From: Bdellovibrionales bacterium
Lineage (GTDB): Bacteria; Bdellovibrionota; Bdellovibrionia; Bdellovibrionales; UBA1609
DNA: 64,000 bases
Assembly: GCA_027459485.1 (NCBI GenBank)
Contig: DAIDIG010000005.1
Span: forward strand, 1-64,000
Reading direction: 5' to 3'
A program made the translations under genes and the position numbers. Shown here one piece after another: positions 3,279-7,596 of the stretch (positions are counted from its first letter, which is position 1; each line of letters opens with the position of its first letter). A model generated the notes under the pieces. The model worked only from the letters and a program-made list of their open reading frames with translations, was not told the DNA's origin and did no database searches.

Positions 3279-4682
3279 ATGAGAATTGAAAAGAAAGTAG
3301 CAGTCGTTGATGACGACGTCGAAATGGGGCGCGTTGTAAAAGATCTTCTGTCAGATGAGGGTTACGCCGTTTCACAATTTACATCGGCAGCCGATGCGCT
3401 CGTTGCATTCAAAAAAGAAAAACCTCAAGTTTTGATCACCGATCATAAAATGAAAGACATCGACGGACTCATGTTTCTGAAAAAGGTCCAATCCGATTAC
3501 CCCGAAATTACGTCACTGATGATGACGGCATTTGGATCGATCGATACAGCAATCGCGGCAATGAAAGCCGGCGCATTTCACTATATTGTGAAGCCGTTCA
3601 AAAACGACGAGCTCGTGCTATTTGTGAAACGCGCTTTTGAAAACGTAGATCTTAAGCAAGAAAACACATCCCTCAAGCAGCAAATTAACAAGAGTTTTAG
3701 TCTCGAAAATATTGTGGGCAAAAGCTCAGCGATTGCATCCGTTTTTGAATTGGTGAAGCTTGTTTCGGCGGCTTCCGCCAATGTTCTCATTCTTGGCGAA
3801 AGCGGCACTGGCAAAGAACTGATCGCGCGCGCGATTCACAACTCGAGCCCACGAAGTAACAAGTCGTTTGTGGCTGTCAATTGTACGGCCATCCCCGAAA
3901 ACCTTCTCGAAAGCGAAATGTTTGGTCACGTTCGAGGTGCGTTCACCGGAGCTATTGCCGACAAAAAGGGGCTATTTGAAGAAGCCCACGGCGGAACACT
4001 TTTCTTGGATGAAATCGGCGATCTTAGCTTGCCACTCCAAGCTAAACTGTTGCGTGTACTACAAGATCAGCAAATTCGCCCAGTCGGCAGTAGCCAATCT
4101 AAACAAGTCGATGTTCGCATCATTGCGGCCACCCACCGCGATTTAAAAATAATGGCAAAAGACGGCAAGTTTCGTGAAGATCTGTTTTACCGCCTCAACG
4201 TAATTCCGATTCAGGTCCCTCCACTTCGCGAACGCATGGAAGACGTCCCCCTACTTGTCGAGACTTTCATTACGAAATTTTCGGCTCGAAACAATTCTAA
4301 GGTTAAGAGCATTTCGCCCGAAGCCATGGCTCTCTTAATGGCCCACCCCTGGCCGGGAAATGTCAGAGAATTAGAAAACGTCATCGAAAGAGCGATGGTC
4401 TTAAGTCGTGGCGAATCGATTGAAAAAACAGTCGTTCTCGATAGCGCGCTTCAAGAAGCAAAACAAAACATCGAGCAATTGCACAGCGACACACCGACAC
4501 TCGAAAAACTCGAAGAACGCTACATCAAAATGACGCTTGCAAAAACCAATTACAAAAAAGACGAAACGGCGAAGATTCTGGGCATCAGTCGCCGAACACT
4601 TTATCGCAAAGAACGGGCTTACGGCATGATTTCGGGTGAAACGCCTGAGCCGCAAGACGAAACAGACGAAACCTCTAAATAG
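3279..4682 (+). CDS. Sigma-54-dependent response regulator, NtrC family
   Basis: 467 residues in the standard three-part order. A receiver domain (1-120) has the acidic pocket D11-D13, phospho-acceptor D55 in LITDHKM, T83 and K105. An AAA+ domain follows with Walker A GESGTGKE (173-180), the sigma-54 contact loop GAFTGA (220-225) and Walker B GGTLFLDEIGDL (about 238-249). A Fis-type helix-turn-helix ends the protein (ETAKILGISRRTLYRKERAYG, about 429-449). It should activate RpoN promoters when phosphorylated by a histidine kinase, none of which is adjacent. A good GAGG-poor leader contains AAGGACACTCCTA before the ATG. The upstream sigma-54-like element hints at autoregulation. Targets are unknown; the site at 63728 is one candidate. 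Confidence 0.92.
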   Translation: MRIEKKVAVVDDDVEMGRVVKDLLSDEGYAVSQFTSAADALVAFKKEKPQVLITDHKMKDIDGLMFLKKVQSDYPEITSLMMTAFGSIDTAIAAMKAGAFHYIVKPFKNDELVLFVKRAFENVDLKQENTSLKQQINKSFSLENIVGKSSAIASVFELVKLVSAASANVLILGESGTGKELIARAIHNSSPRSNKSFVAVNCTAIPENLLESEMFGHVRGAFTGAIADKKGLFEEAHGGTLFLDEIGDLSLPLQAKLLRVLQDQQIRPVGSSQSKQVDVRIIAATHRDLKIMAKDGKFREDLFYRLNVIPIQVPPLRERMEDVPLLVETFITKFSARNNSKVKSISPEAMALLMAHPWPGNVRELENVIERAMVLSRGESIEKTVVLDSALQEAKQNIEQLHSDTPTLEKLEERYIKMTLAKTNYKKDETAKILGISRRTLYRKERAYGMISGETPEPQDETDETSK

Positions 4683-4732: not shown

Positions 4733-5722
4733 CTATTTTAGACCTTGAATATAGTTTGCCAGATTCGTCTCATCATCTTTTGTCAGATGCTGCACAAATG
4801 TTGGCATAACAGTGGCCTCAGTGCGCTCGCCTTTTTTGAAGGCCTCGAGTTGTCGCACAATATAATCCGAGAATTGCCCAGCTAGCCGCGGAGCCGAACC
4901 AGAGCCCTGGCCAGCGTCACCGTGACAAAGCATGCAGGCTGGCACACCTTGCGCCGGGATGCCGTTTTCAAAAATAGTTTTGCCAAGAGCCGCTCGAGCC
5001 GGGTCACCCGGCGTGTTGGCCACAGGCGTCTGCGTGCTAAAATATTCGGCGAGCAACTGAATAGTCGGATCGTCGAGACTTGAGGCCGGACCCCACATAT
5101 ACATTTGCGCATTATTATCTTTGCGCGCGTGGCTTCGAAACGCCTTCAGCTCCGTCTCAACGTACCAATCCTTTTGACCCGCGATTCGCGGAAAGATGGA
5201 CGACGTGCTATTGCCGTTATTACCGTGGCAAACAAAACACTCTTGGTTAAGAAGGTTTTGTATTGGAGCAAAATCGGGCGGCGGTTGAGGCGTTGGTGCA
5301 GGTGTCGGAGACGGTGATGGGCCCGGCGAAGGTGAAGGCGTCGGCCCGCCCCCGCTCGGTGCATCTTCCGGTGCACCGGCTTTGATCCAGGCGCCGATTT
5401 CTTGCCGTTCGCCCTCGGTGATAGCGGCAGCTTGAGCTGTACCGGGCGGCGGCATTTTATCTTCCACTACGGCCCATTGATAAATTTTGTCGCGAAACGA
5501 ATACGCCGTATTATAGTCCTGCCAGTTGGGTTCAGGTTTACCGGGGCCATGACAAGCTCCGCAGCGCTGAACAAAAATTGCTTTTATAGAGCCATTATAC
5601 GTCAGCATGCCGGCAACTACGGAGCCGCCAGCACCATCCATCGGCACATACAAATGCGGGCCGCTGGGATTACAACCAATAAGACTGAAAGCAAATAATG
5701 CGATGGCTATTATGAGTTTCAA
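4733..5722 (-). CDS. Three-haem c-type cytochrome lipoprotein
   Basis: 329-residue exported protein with lipobox LIGC17, so probably anchored in a membrane and facing the periplasm. Three haem sites are visible: C54GACH58, C162FVCH166 and C263MLCH267. A Pro/Ser/Thr linker (about 119-150) separates an N-terminal monohaem domain from two tandem class I domains that look like cytochrome c4 (FPRIAGQ and APRLAGQ after the haems). Such proteins shuttle electrons to terminal oxidases. The start is TTG: GAGGG lies 8 bases upstream and no ATG fits. It is divergent from the haem-porin gene, suggesting one electron route. Confidence 0.85.
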   Translation of the reverse strand: MKLIIAIALFAFSLIGCNPSGPHLYVPMDGAGGSVVAGMLTYNGSIKAIFVQRCGACHGPGKPEPNWQDYNTAYSFRDKIYQWAVVEDKMPPPGTAQAAAITEGERQEIGAWIKAGAPEDAPSGGGPTPSPSPGPSPSPTPAPTPQPPPDFAPIQNLLNQECFVCHGNNGNSTSSIFPRIAGQKDWYVETELKAFRSHARKDNNAQMYMWGPASSLDDPTIQLLAEYFSTQTPVANTPGDPARAALGKTIFENGIPAQGVPACMLCHGDAGQGSGSAPRLAGQFSDYIVRQLEAFKKGERTEATVMPTFVQHLTKDDETNLANYIQGLK

Positions 5723-5953
5723 TTGATATCCCTCTTTTTAATTGTCTCATTTTTATACAGCAATTTGCATGCCGCCGCCATAGAGTCAGGTGGTTCTAGA
5801 TAATTTTTTAACTGTGACAGTTTGTCGCCAAAGCTCGGCCAACTTGTCTCGCAAAATTGTGAGCTACATTGTAATCACTCGAGATTTCTATCGGCGACCC
5901 AATTGCAATTACAAAAATTACAGAGGATCAGTCTGACAAATTGGGAGGACACC
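5723..5953. promoter_or_regulatory. Divergent control region of the cytochrome island
   Basis: 231 bp between the two divergent cytochrome genes. It contains AATTGTCTCATT (5740-5751), identical to 3103-3114 upstream of the DUF455 gene, and TGACAAATTG (5934-5943), identical to 3098-3107. No clear -35/-10 pair was found. The shared words may mark a common regulator. Confidence 0.4.
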
Positions 5954-7219
5954 ATGGTTGTACTATTAACATTTCTGTCGCTCGCCTTTTTCGGCAGTAA
6001 CGTACATGCATTGCCGGCGTTCGCACGACGTTACAACGTTTCGTGTTCGATGTGCCACACCGACGGAGCCGCTCCCCACTTAACCGAGCTTGGGTACATC
6101 TTTCGTCGGATGGCGTTTCATTTGCCTGGTCAGCTGGGTGATGAGAAGGGCGACGACGCTAGCATGAAAGTGACTAACCACTCCGCTGTTGGCGTCAACG
6201 TTGCCTATCAATACGCATCTAATAGTAGTGCGGGCCAAACAACGACAAGCGCCAATGGTATCAACGTACCCGAAGTCGAGTTGTGGCCTTTAGTTGGAGG
6301 TTTTTTCGGTAATTGGGGCGTGTGGTCCGAAGTCGACGCCACACCCGCCACAAATACGGACGGCGGCGGTCTCGACATCCCGATGGCGGATGTGCGCTAT
6401 GCGTACGGTACGCCCGATTTGTTTTACAATTTTCGCGCCGGCATGATGGCGCCTGAGGGCTTCGGCGCATCCGACCAATGGCTGGATGACGGCAACATAC
6501 CGCTTATGGAACTTCTCACCCCCTACAAAAACCAAGACACCTTGGCCACTCCGCTAGGAGCGATGAACTCAGCCGAACTTGGATTCGAAGCTGGCATTAA
6601 TTATAAGCAATCGCATTTGACTCTCGGCTACTACGACGGTTACGCCGACCAAGCGTTGGCGCCCTCGTCTAGCAGTTCGTCAGCGCTGGTACCGGCGACG
6701 TTAAAAACGAACGACACCGGCATGCGAGACGTGAAAGTGCAACTCGATCAATTTGCCGGCAAATACGGCGAAATCACCGCGGCTTACTACCATGGCTCCA
6801 TCCCGCTCACATTTTTAGGCGATGCCACCCAGCCCTGGCTCGACAATTACGATCAGGAGCGCGTGTATCTGACGGCTTTTGCGATCCCGAACAAACTCGA
6901 TGTTGTGGCGGGTGCATCGTGGGCGCAAAACCAGTACGTCGACGTGAGCACGACGCCCGCTGGTAATTTCGAAAGCCGAGGCGAATTCGTCGGCGCCTAC
7001 TACTATGCAACGCCGCACATGGTAATCGCCGCGCGTGCCGACAAGTTCTTTTATAACTTCGAACAAAGCGCGACTGGCACCTCCCTACAGGTCAGCTTGC
7101 CATACGGTAACCACATCTTTATATTTCACTATAATCGCACGGCATCGGACATAGCTAACGGTCCGCTTTCGCAAGGCTGGAACAACGACGTCGGTTTCGA
7201 TTTGAGATTTTTACTCTAG
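5954..7219 (+). CDS. Cyc2-like fused monohaem cytochrome-porin
   Basis: 421 residues. A signal peptide (1-19, ending NVHA) is followed at once by the haem-binding stretch LPAFARRYNVSCSMCH (C31, C34, H35) and then a PhLteLGyiFRrm segment. This resembles the N-terminus of outer-membrane cytochrome-porins such as Cyc2. The remaining 350 residues alternate polar and aromatic positions and end in FLL, as expected for a beta-barrel. Family members carry electrons across the outer membrane; in Cyc2 the donor is Fe(II). Donor and direction here are unknown. The ATG at 5954 is chosen because GGGAGGA sits 6 bases upstream and the signal peptide begins there. A cytochrome c gene follows after 18 bp. Confidence 0.75.
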   Translation: MVVLLTFLSLAFFGSNVHALPAFARRYNVSCSMCHTDGAAPHLTELGYIFRRMAFHLPGQLGDEKGDDASMKVTNHSAVGVNVAYQYASNSSAGQTTTSANGINVPEVELWPLVGGFFGNWGVWSEVDATPATNTDGGGLDIPMADVRYAYGTPDLFYNFRAGMMAPEGFGASDQWLDDGNIPLMELLTPYKNQDTLATPLGAMNSAELGFEAGINYKQSHLTLGYYDGYADQALAPSSSSSSALVPATLKTNDTGMRDVKVQLDQFAGKYGEITAAYYHGSIPLTFLGDATQPWLDNYDQERVYLTAFAIPNKLDVVAGASWAQNQYVDVSTTPAGNFESRGEFVGAYYYATPHMVIAARADKFFYNFEQSATGTSLQVSLPYGNHIFIFHYNRTASDIANGPLSQGWNNDVGFDLRFLL

Positions 7220-7237
7220 ACTAGAAGGAGAATAGAA

Positions 7238-7579
7238 ATGAAAACAGCAGCATTCATAATCATCGCAATCGCAACCGCCTCGAGTTTAACCTACGCGAAA
7301 GACGCAGCCCTCGTAGCGAAAGGCAAAGCCATTTTCAAGGTGAATTGCGAAACTTGCCACGGCGAAAAGGCCGACGGTATGGGCCCCGCCGGTCAATACA
7401 TGTCGCCCCATCCGCGTAACCTTGTAAAAGATAAATTTAAAGCCGGTGATTCGACGGCTCAGATTTACAACACCGTCACAAACGGTTTGCCGAATACGGC
7501 GATGGTCGGCTTTCCGCAACTCACCGATGCCGATCGGCACGCGGTCGCAGCGTACGTTAAAAGCCTGCGCGCACACTAA
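7238..7579 (+). CDS. Small periplasmic cytochrome c, class I
   Basis: 113 residues: signal peptide (about 1-20, ending TYA), haem motif C37ETCH41, and a probable axial methionine M89 in NTAMVGFP, followed by a C-terminal helix (LTDADRHAVAAYVKSL). This is the standard monohaem fold. AGAAGGAG precedes the ATG by 8 bases. It lies 18 bp downstream of the haem-porin gene, so it is the likely periplasmic partner passing electrons to or from the barrel. Confidence 0.88.
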   Translation: MKTAAFIIIAIATASSLTYAKDAALVAKGKAIFKVNCETCHGEKADGMGPAGQYMSPHPRNLVKDKFKAGDSTAQIYNTVTNGLPNTAMVGFPQLTDADRHAVAAYVKSLRAH

Positions 7580-7580
7580 G

Positions 7581-7596
7581 CTCCAAGTGGAGTTTT
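7581..7596 (+). terminator. Weak terminator after the cytochrome c gene
   Basis: CTCC-AAGT-GGAG followed by TTTT, starting 2 nt after the stop codon. The stem is short, so function is uncertain. Confidence 0.35.

Follow-up and report, generated by a model that had tools for sequence, protein, structure and literature searches.

The DNA analyzed here, referred to as the window, is a 64,000-nucleotide stretch (positions 1 to 64,000 of contig DAIDIG010000005.1, assembly GCA_027459485.1) from the genome of a Bdellovibrionales bacterium with a completeness of 99.83%. At positions 4733-7579 it encodes a Cyc2-like fused monohaem cytochrome-porin (gene A), a monohaem class-I cytochrome c (gene B), and a trihaem lipoprotein (gene C). 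A sequence-only reading of the same DNA had listed a haem-porin, a periplasmic cytochrome c and a three-haem c4-like lipoprotein at this place, and all three genes are indeed present. The CXXCH motif occurs in 4 of the 58 nonoverlapping open reading frames (ORFs) of at least 110 amino acids in the window, and three of these four are genes A, B, and C. The principal features are as follows.

5954..7219, plus strand: gene A, Cyc2-like fused monohaem cytochrome-porin, 421 amino acids plus stop (coding 5954-7216)
6044..6058, plus strand: haem attachment site CSMCH of gene A, residues 31-35, within ALPAFARRYNVSCSMCH; C31, C34, and H35 invariant in 40 rows
6185..7213, plus strand: predicted 16-stranded beta-barrel of gene A, residues 78-420, from AlphaFold2 and structural matches
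6455..6490, plus strand: gene A motif EGFGASDQWLDD at residues 168-179; lies in the long loop joining strands 5 and 6 (loop assigned by strand count)
7238..7579, plus strand: gene B, monohaem class-I cytochrome c, 113 amino acids plus stop (coding 7238-7576)
4733..5722, minus strand: gene C, trihaem lipoprotein, 329 amino acids (coding 4736-5722)
4742..5269, minus strand: dihaem domain of gene C, residues 152-327, closest in the Protein Data Bank (PDB) to Acidithiobacillus ferrooxidans Cyc1 (1h1o)
5387..5602, minus strand: N-terminal monohaem domain of gene C, about residues 41-112; C54, C57, H58, M90, and P91 invariant in 9 rows

The ATG start of gene A is preceded by GGGAGGACACC, and gene B begins 18 bp past the gene A stop codon on the same strand. 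Gene C, which diverges from both, opens with a lipobox (LIGC, recognized by eye) and contains three CXXCH motifs arranged as an N-terminal monohaem domain, a Pro-rich linker, and a C-terminal dihaem domain of the Cyc1/c4 type. The Pfam families Cytochrom_C and Cytochrome_CBB3 both score over their cut-offs in genes B and C.

The single CXXCH of gene A, CSMCH, lies inside HALPAFARRYNVSCSMCH, directly after a signal-like segment (a signal peptide as judged by eye). Because the haem Cys-Cys-His is unchanged in 40 of 40 aligned relatives, and because orthologues occur elsewhere in Bdellovibrionota, the haem-porin is not a chance arrangement. AlphaFold2 with an eight-sequence alignment gave a model with a predicted local distance difference test (pLDDT) score of 63, a predicted template modeling (pTM) score of 0.65, and 16 strands if one four-residue strand is left uncounted; a 40-sequence alignment, whose members are 13-75% identical to gene A, gave pLDDT 78.5, pTM 0.80, and exactly 16 strands. 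The highest Foldseek matches to the gene A model are general porins and AlgE (best E 1.4e-11), with OprO at 1.5e-10 and OprP at 6.2e-10, while VIA-align places its top row at Z 24.2, OprO (4rjw) at Z 23.3, and OprP (2o4v) at Z 23.1; a family missing from these lists carries no evidential weight. The outer-membrane barrel proposed by the sequence-only reading, which had named structure prediction as one of its checks, is thus upheld by two models with 16 strands and by matches to 16-stranded porins at Z 23-24. Gene A has no Pfam or NCBIfam match above cut-off, a result that is uninformative for NCBIfam, since NCBIfam also misses two canonical-looking gammaproteobacterial sequences (compared loci L167 and L195). 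A sequence search of the PDB returned chance matches only, and tblastn against a plasmid collection returned no match. The haem site and the barrel fold come from computation, as do the gene neighbors, their conserved pairing, and the relatives; gene A would be an outer-membrane protein.

In PMC8406198, Cyc2 is described as a 16-stranded OprO/OprP-like porin with an N-terminal monohaem domain bearing the motif AXPXFAR[Q/K][T/Y], a length of at least 365 amino acids, and PXL four residues past CXXCH; the same text names OprO and OprP as templates for Cyc2 and calls the porin domain poorly conserved in general. Further marks of Cyc2 in that text are a blastp hit on Cyc2 references at 1e-5 or better (or a score over the FeGenie Cyc2 HMM cut-off), a place in one of three Cyc2 tree clusters, and Fe(II) oxidation at a suitable redox potential. 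Gene A shares with Cyc2 of Acidithiobacillus, Mariprofundus, and Gallionellaceae, and with Cyt572 of Leptospirillum, a signal peptide, a single N-terminal CXXCH in an A-P-FAR context, and, in the predicted structure, a fused 16-stranded OprO/OprP-like porin; its 421 residues exceed the minimum length, and cytochrome partner genes lie nearby, as they do for Cyc2. It differs in two sequence features: the motif reads ALPAFARRY, with R for Q/K and the remainder matching, and in CHTDGAAPHL the Pro is the sixth residue after His rather than the fourth, as it is in L165 and L167. Since these two features are not strictly present, we call gene A Cyc2-like. The motif region also varies among its closest Bdellovibrionota relatives (clade A, below), which carry FAIRE, FALRE, FARKE, and FARRE. 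In the MtrAB, MtoAB, and PioAB systems, too, extracellular electron transfer, the function considered here for gene A, relies on c-type haem combined with a barrel in the outer membrane; however, they comprise a 26-stranded barrel and a separate decahaem protein (as the text of PMC8406198 states for MtrAB-type complexes), and an MtrAB-type assignment was rejected for the 16 strands and single fused haem of the gene A model.

In Cyc2 pathways, Cyc1 is used downstream. The best PDB match of gene C is A. ferrooxidans Cyc1 (1h1o): the full protein scores E 7.5e-40 and the dihaem domain alone E 2.3e-40. A generic c4 likeness was rejected as the source of this match, given the 16 orders of magnitude to the next solved c4 (E 5.2e-24). 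Like Cyc1, gene C has two CXXCH-bearing c4-type domains and a YMW stretch, and its dihaem domain is nearer to Cyc1 (42% identity to 1h1o) than to three other solved c4 cytochromes (33-34%). Cyc1 stands alone, whereas in gene C a third haem domain is fused ahead of the dihaem one, in a lipoprotein that is encoded divergently. Outside the genus, the best match of this domain, within a hand-made set of 25 sequences including itself, is the cyc1-like gene beside the cyc2-like gene in L165 (49%). In a 24-row tree the split of the domain from other c4 sequences is weak (42/47), and a single clade with Cyc1 is not rejected by the approximately unbiased test (p-AU 0.316). PMC10654088 places Cyc1 after cyc2 in the rus operon and on the oxidase side.

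The three closest relatives of gene B outside its own genome, among 40 genomes, are copies beside or near a Cyc2-like porin (G308, 57%; G227, 61%; G307, 53%, with one ORF between copy and porin; here G000 denotes the window's own genome, other G labels compared genomes, and L labels compared loci). The wider gene B family is common, at 28 of the 40 genomes at E <= 1e-10. Its best NCBIfam model is cytochrome 579, at 53 bits far below the cut-off of 280; cytochrome 579 is the Leptospirillum partner in the Cyc572-Cyc579 system, according to PMC10654088. A small c-type cytochrome gene is adjacent to or near the porin at five of seven clade-A loci (G000, G004, G308, G227, and G307), and of 84 loci of the wider superfamily that are flanked by 1 kb or more, 36 have a small haem protein within 1.5 kb, as counted with a crude signal-peptide rule. 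The locus matches the description of a Cyc2-like fused monohaem cytochrome-porin with dedicated cytochrome neighbors in a Bdellovibrionota genome, in which the nearest solved relative of gene C is Cyc1.

Several other Cyc1-like arrangements were also observed. The window's genome encodes a second, stand-alone Cyc1-like dihaem cytochrome (G000:C2:231991-232524, L117) that is 61% identical to the gene C dihaem domain and has no haem neighbors in the 18 kb examined. Gammaproteobacterial cyc2-cyc1 pairs occur in L165, L167, and L180, where no rusticyanin was recognized by eye within the few kb inspected; cyc1 comes first in L167 and L180, opposite to the arrangement of the rus operon. In L192 (2846-3487 onward) such a pair is followed by an ORF with about 20 or more CXXCH motifs that runs off the end of the stretch.

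Orthologues of gene A at 39-75% identity occur in other Bdellovibrionota, with full-length matches in three of six genus genomes (its own included) and matches in 9 of 368 phylum genomes at E <= 1e-6; its kin in named records are metagenome-assembled genomes (MAGs) labeled Bdellovibrionales, Bdellovibrio sp., and Oligoflexia. The wider Cyc2-like superfamily of fused cytochrome-porins is large, common, and far wider than the known iron oxidizers: one scan of named genomes gave 49 loci, and within one class, that of a Woeseiaceae genome, 80 of 369 genomes have a match at E <= 1e-6, which by a hand count begins in the haem segment in about 63 of the 80. For this reason the description of such a protein as unexpected in this lineage was too strong, the more so as a Bdellovibrionota MAG is already tabulated, without detail, among MAGs with iron-oxidation gene families in PMC12501874. 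Cyc2-like proteins in Elusimicrobiota and Eremiobacterota are likewise reported in PMC8357290.

A quick tree with long rows was computed on 106 sequences (117 extracted, less one identical row, one type-2 protein of the family described below and 11 near-duplicates, plus L165 and L167; loci not fitting the extraction pattern, such as L046, L076, L081, and L142, are omitted). Six clade-A Bdellovibrionota rows, from three families of the phylum (f1, f8, and f22), form one branch with a Shimodaira–Hasegawa-like approximate likelihood ratio test (SH-aLRT) support of 100. Clade A is joined, at SH-aLRT 95, by clade B, which consists of two more Bdellovibrionota rows, and by rows from Omnitrophota, Elusimicrobiota, and Nitrospinota; the Cyc2-like proteins of these three phyla are the nearest branches to gene A, yet they share only ~16-21% full-length identity with it and have a different pore loop. 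Gene A is on a branch separate from the cyc1-adjacent gammaproteobacterial rows and has a pore-loop motif of its own. This motif, EGFGASDQWLDD, sits between strand 5 (156-165) and strand 6 (208-217), the position of the constriction loop in general porins, and the acidic residues that it places where the pore is narrowest could plausibly form a donor or entry site.

We propose that gene A works like Cyc2, as an outer-membrane fused cytochrome-porin. A small soluble extracellular reductant, with Fe(II) as first guess, would pass the acidic loop joining strands 5 and 6 as it enters the pore, and would reduce the single haem near the periplasmic mouth; the haem would pass electrons to the periplasmic cytochromes, gene B and the trihaem lipoprotein C, and from these they would reach a caa3-type oxidase encoded elsewhere in the genome, and O2. 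The genome has one COX1 match (haem-copper oxidase), which could serve as the sink for this electron flow; clustered with it are genes for a subunit-II-like protein that bears CXXCH (assigned to the caa3 type by eye) and for a membrane cytochrome c matching gene B at 36%. The conduit would be a supplementary energy or electron source rather than a basis for Calvin-cycle autotrophy, since no RuBisCO was found in six genus genomes; autotrophy of that kind was rejected. We consider it likely that gene A conducts electrons across the outer membrane, and we lean somewhat toward the whole inward path from a soluble donor to the oxidase. Taken separately, the inward direction is evenly balanced, and Fe(II) as the main donor is a first guess that we hold to be somewhat less likely than not. 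The electron exchange across the outer membrane that the sequence-only reading suggested stands as the best interpretation. A place in the Cyc2 clusters of iron oxidizers is not supported by tree position and motif, and a classification of gene A as a genuine iron-oxidizer Cyc2 was rejected, given its motif, its PXL spacing, and its separate branch.

A number of observations weigh against an inward Cyc2-type path. Gene A falls outside the 41-row gammaproteobacterial clade (SH-aLRT 99) that contains all four cyc1-adjacent rows (L165, L167, L180, and L192), and these are themselves canonical by motif and neighbor only, with no verified iron oxidizer included. It matches these four at E 6.5e-5 to 0.009, and L200 of the same clade at E 7e-10 (database size set to 720,000), yet the likeness to the clade is confined to the first 60 residues (E 1.8e-8 alone), and the barrel alone gave no match to the clade profile. 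The partners are not constant either: two of the seven clade-A loci (G005 and G212:C4) have no cytochrome near the porin, and the porin-bearing genomes G227, G307, and G308 have no match to the Cyc1-like domain at E <= 1e-10. RuBisCO is found in none of the six genus genomes, and the path from gene A through B and C is a prediction from sequence and modeled structure. Finally, the pore-loop signature EG.GA.D occurs in 8 of the 106 rows, namely all eight Bdellovibrionota clade A/B rows, and in none of the other 98, which include four other, distant Bdellovibrionota rows; its absence from those 98 rows suggests that the donor preference may differ.

This signature is also an argument for a fused cytochrome-porin that takes electrons from a donor other than Fe(II), such as Mn(II), a reduced organic or sulfur compound, or a product of another cell, with the choice set by the Bdellovibrionota-specific loop. 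Such a role would fit a superfamily far broader than the known iron oxidizers, and Cyc2 homologues of manganese oxidizers are proposed to act on Mn(II) in PMC11442690; however, no particular donor is positively supported, and we regard this explanation as rather unlikely. The same parts could also run in reverse, carrying periplasmic electrons to a soluble extracellular acceptor when O2 is short. The anatomy of gene A is symmetric with respect to direction, the lack of RuBisCO makes lithoautotrophy unlikely, and magnetotactic Bdellovibrionota, in which default FeGenie found no iron gene, have MtrA/MtrB-like proteins at a relaxed threshold (PMC13200544). Against an outward conduit, the nearest characterized analogues, Cyc2 and Cyt572, oxidize Fe(II) (PMC8406198), and gene C resembles Cyc1, an oxidase-side protein (PMC10654088); we judge it unlikely, slightly more so than a different donor.

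A single haem plug at the mouth of a porin could instead open and close the pore or report the redox state, outside any electron chain, and the two clade-A loci lacking a cytochrome neighbor would suit such a gated or redox-sensing porin. On the other hand, in other families of the phylum the closest kin of gene B are found next to the porin or not far from it, and gene C, a multihaem lipoprotein, fits transfer better than sensing, so that this explanation appears improbable. Returning to electron transfer through gene A, the locus is a real and divergent Cyc2-like system with its own cytochromes and a probable conduit; Fe(II) as its donor is a sensible starting guess, not a result.

A second type of haem-porin, here termed type-2, is encoded near some Cyc2-like genes; ~400 amino acids long, it carries a single CXXCH near its N terminus, with the motif CXXCHxxPxGGG. 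In a comparison by hhalign, 333 columns of its profile could be aligned to the Cyc2-like profile (probability 98.1%, E 1.2e-13), and it is for this reason probably a distant branch of the Cyc2-like superfamily. For the members tested, no Pfam or NCBIfam family was found, and the type-2 family is apparently undescribed. At E <= 1e-20, 45 of the 368 phylum genomes have a member, the window's genome included (G000:C11:82149-83330; L134, L212). Seventeen of the 368 Bdellovibrionota genomes contain a full-length trihaem lipoprotein with the gene C architecture (matches from model position 10 or lower to 320 or higher of 328). A type-2 gene is found no more than 2 kb away from 15 of these 17, the exceptions being the lipoprotein of G005 and that of the window, which is beside the Cyc2-like porin. 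All nine shorter matches with an N-terminal haem that were entered also lie within 2 kb of a type-2 gene; the co-location count covered 30 trihaem rows (all full-length rows plus the strongest or N-terminal partial ones), with positions transferred by hand. Because 15 of the 17 adjoin type-2 genes and the one in the window pairs with a Cyc2-like porin, the trihaem lipoprotein would be a general partner of porin conduits. Thus, of the electron chain of its own that had been ascribed to gene A, the dedicated cytochromes hold, but the lipoprotein is not mainly a Cyc2 partner, being found elsewhere in the phylum beside the type-2 porin. Type-2 genes were often seen beside a trihaem lipoprotein and a c5-like cytochrome (L125-L133).

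It may be, though we put this a little below an even chance, that Bdellovibrionota have at least two unrecognized fused monohaem cytochrome-porin conduits, one Cyc2-like and one the phylum-wide type-2 with the trihaem lipoprotein as its standing partner, and that the window lineage swapped the lipoprotein to the Cyc2-like porin, so that conduits would trade partners with one another. In that case, some bacteria of lineages known for predation would tap extracellular redox compounds or discharge electrons to them. Among the papers listed on Bdellovibrio, Bdellovibrionota, or Oligoflexia with cyc2, iron oxidation, or extracellular electron transfer (subscription papers and preprints lying outside the scope), no description of the system was seen. 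Cyc2 homologues are taken to mark iron oxidation, although for most members of the superfamily the function has yet to be tested. The present locus offers a compact, divergent, and expressible conduit (porin, monohaem cytochrome c, and trihaem lipoprotein) in a phylum best known for predators, and it can test whether a Cyc2-like fold implies that Fe(II) is oxidized or points to a more general route for electrons at the outer membrane. The type-2 family shares this lipoprotein partner, which suggests that conduits built on a single-haem porin are more frequent and more modular than the papers considered here describe.

Two further features of the locus, and some neighboring genes, complete its description.

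5723..5953, no strand: divergent intergenic region between genes C and A, 231 bp, from sequence
7578..7595, plus strand: terminator-like stem-loop after gene B, a consensus match only

A sigma-54-like -24/-12 site upstream of gene C (5780-5767, minus strand) is at chance level, with 12 such sites found in the window against 10.4 expected; near it lies a gene for an NtrC-type sigma-54 activator (3279-4679, plus strand), convergent with gene C. DabA, an inorganic-carbon transporter subunit, was found in 4 of 18 genomes searched, including that of the window. In G005, a same-genus genome (L008, G005:C13, 3-4868), DabA and a NuoL/DabB-like gene (inorganic-carbon uptake) come after the Cyc2-like gene and share its strand.

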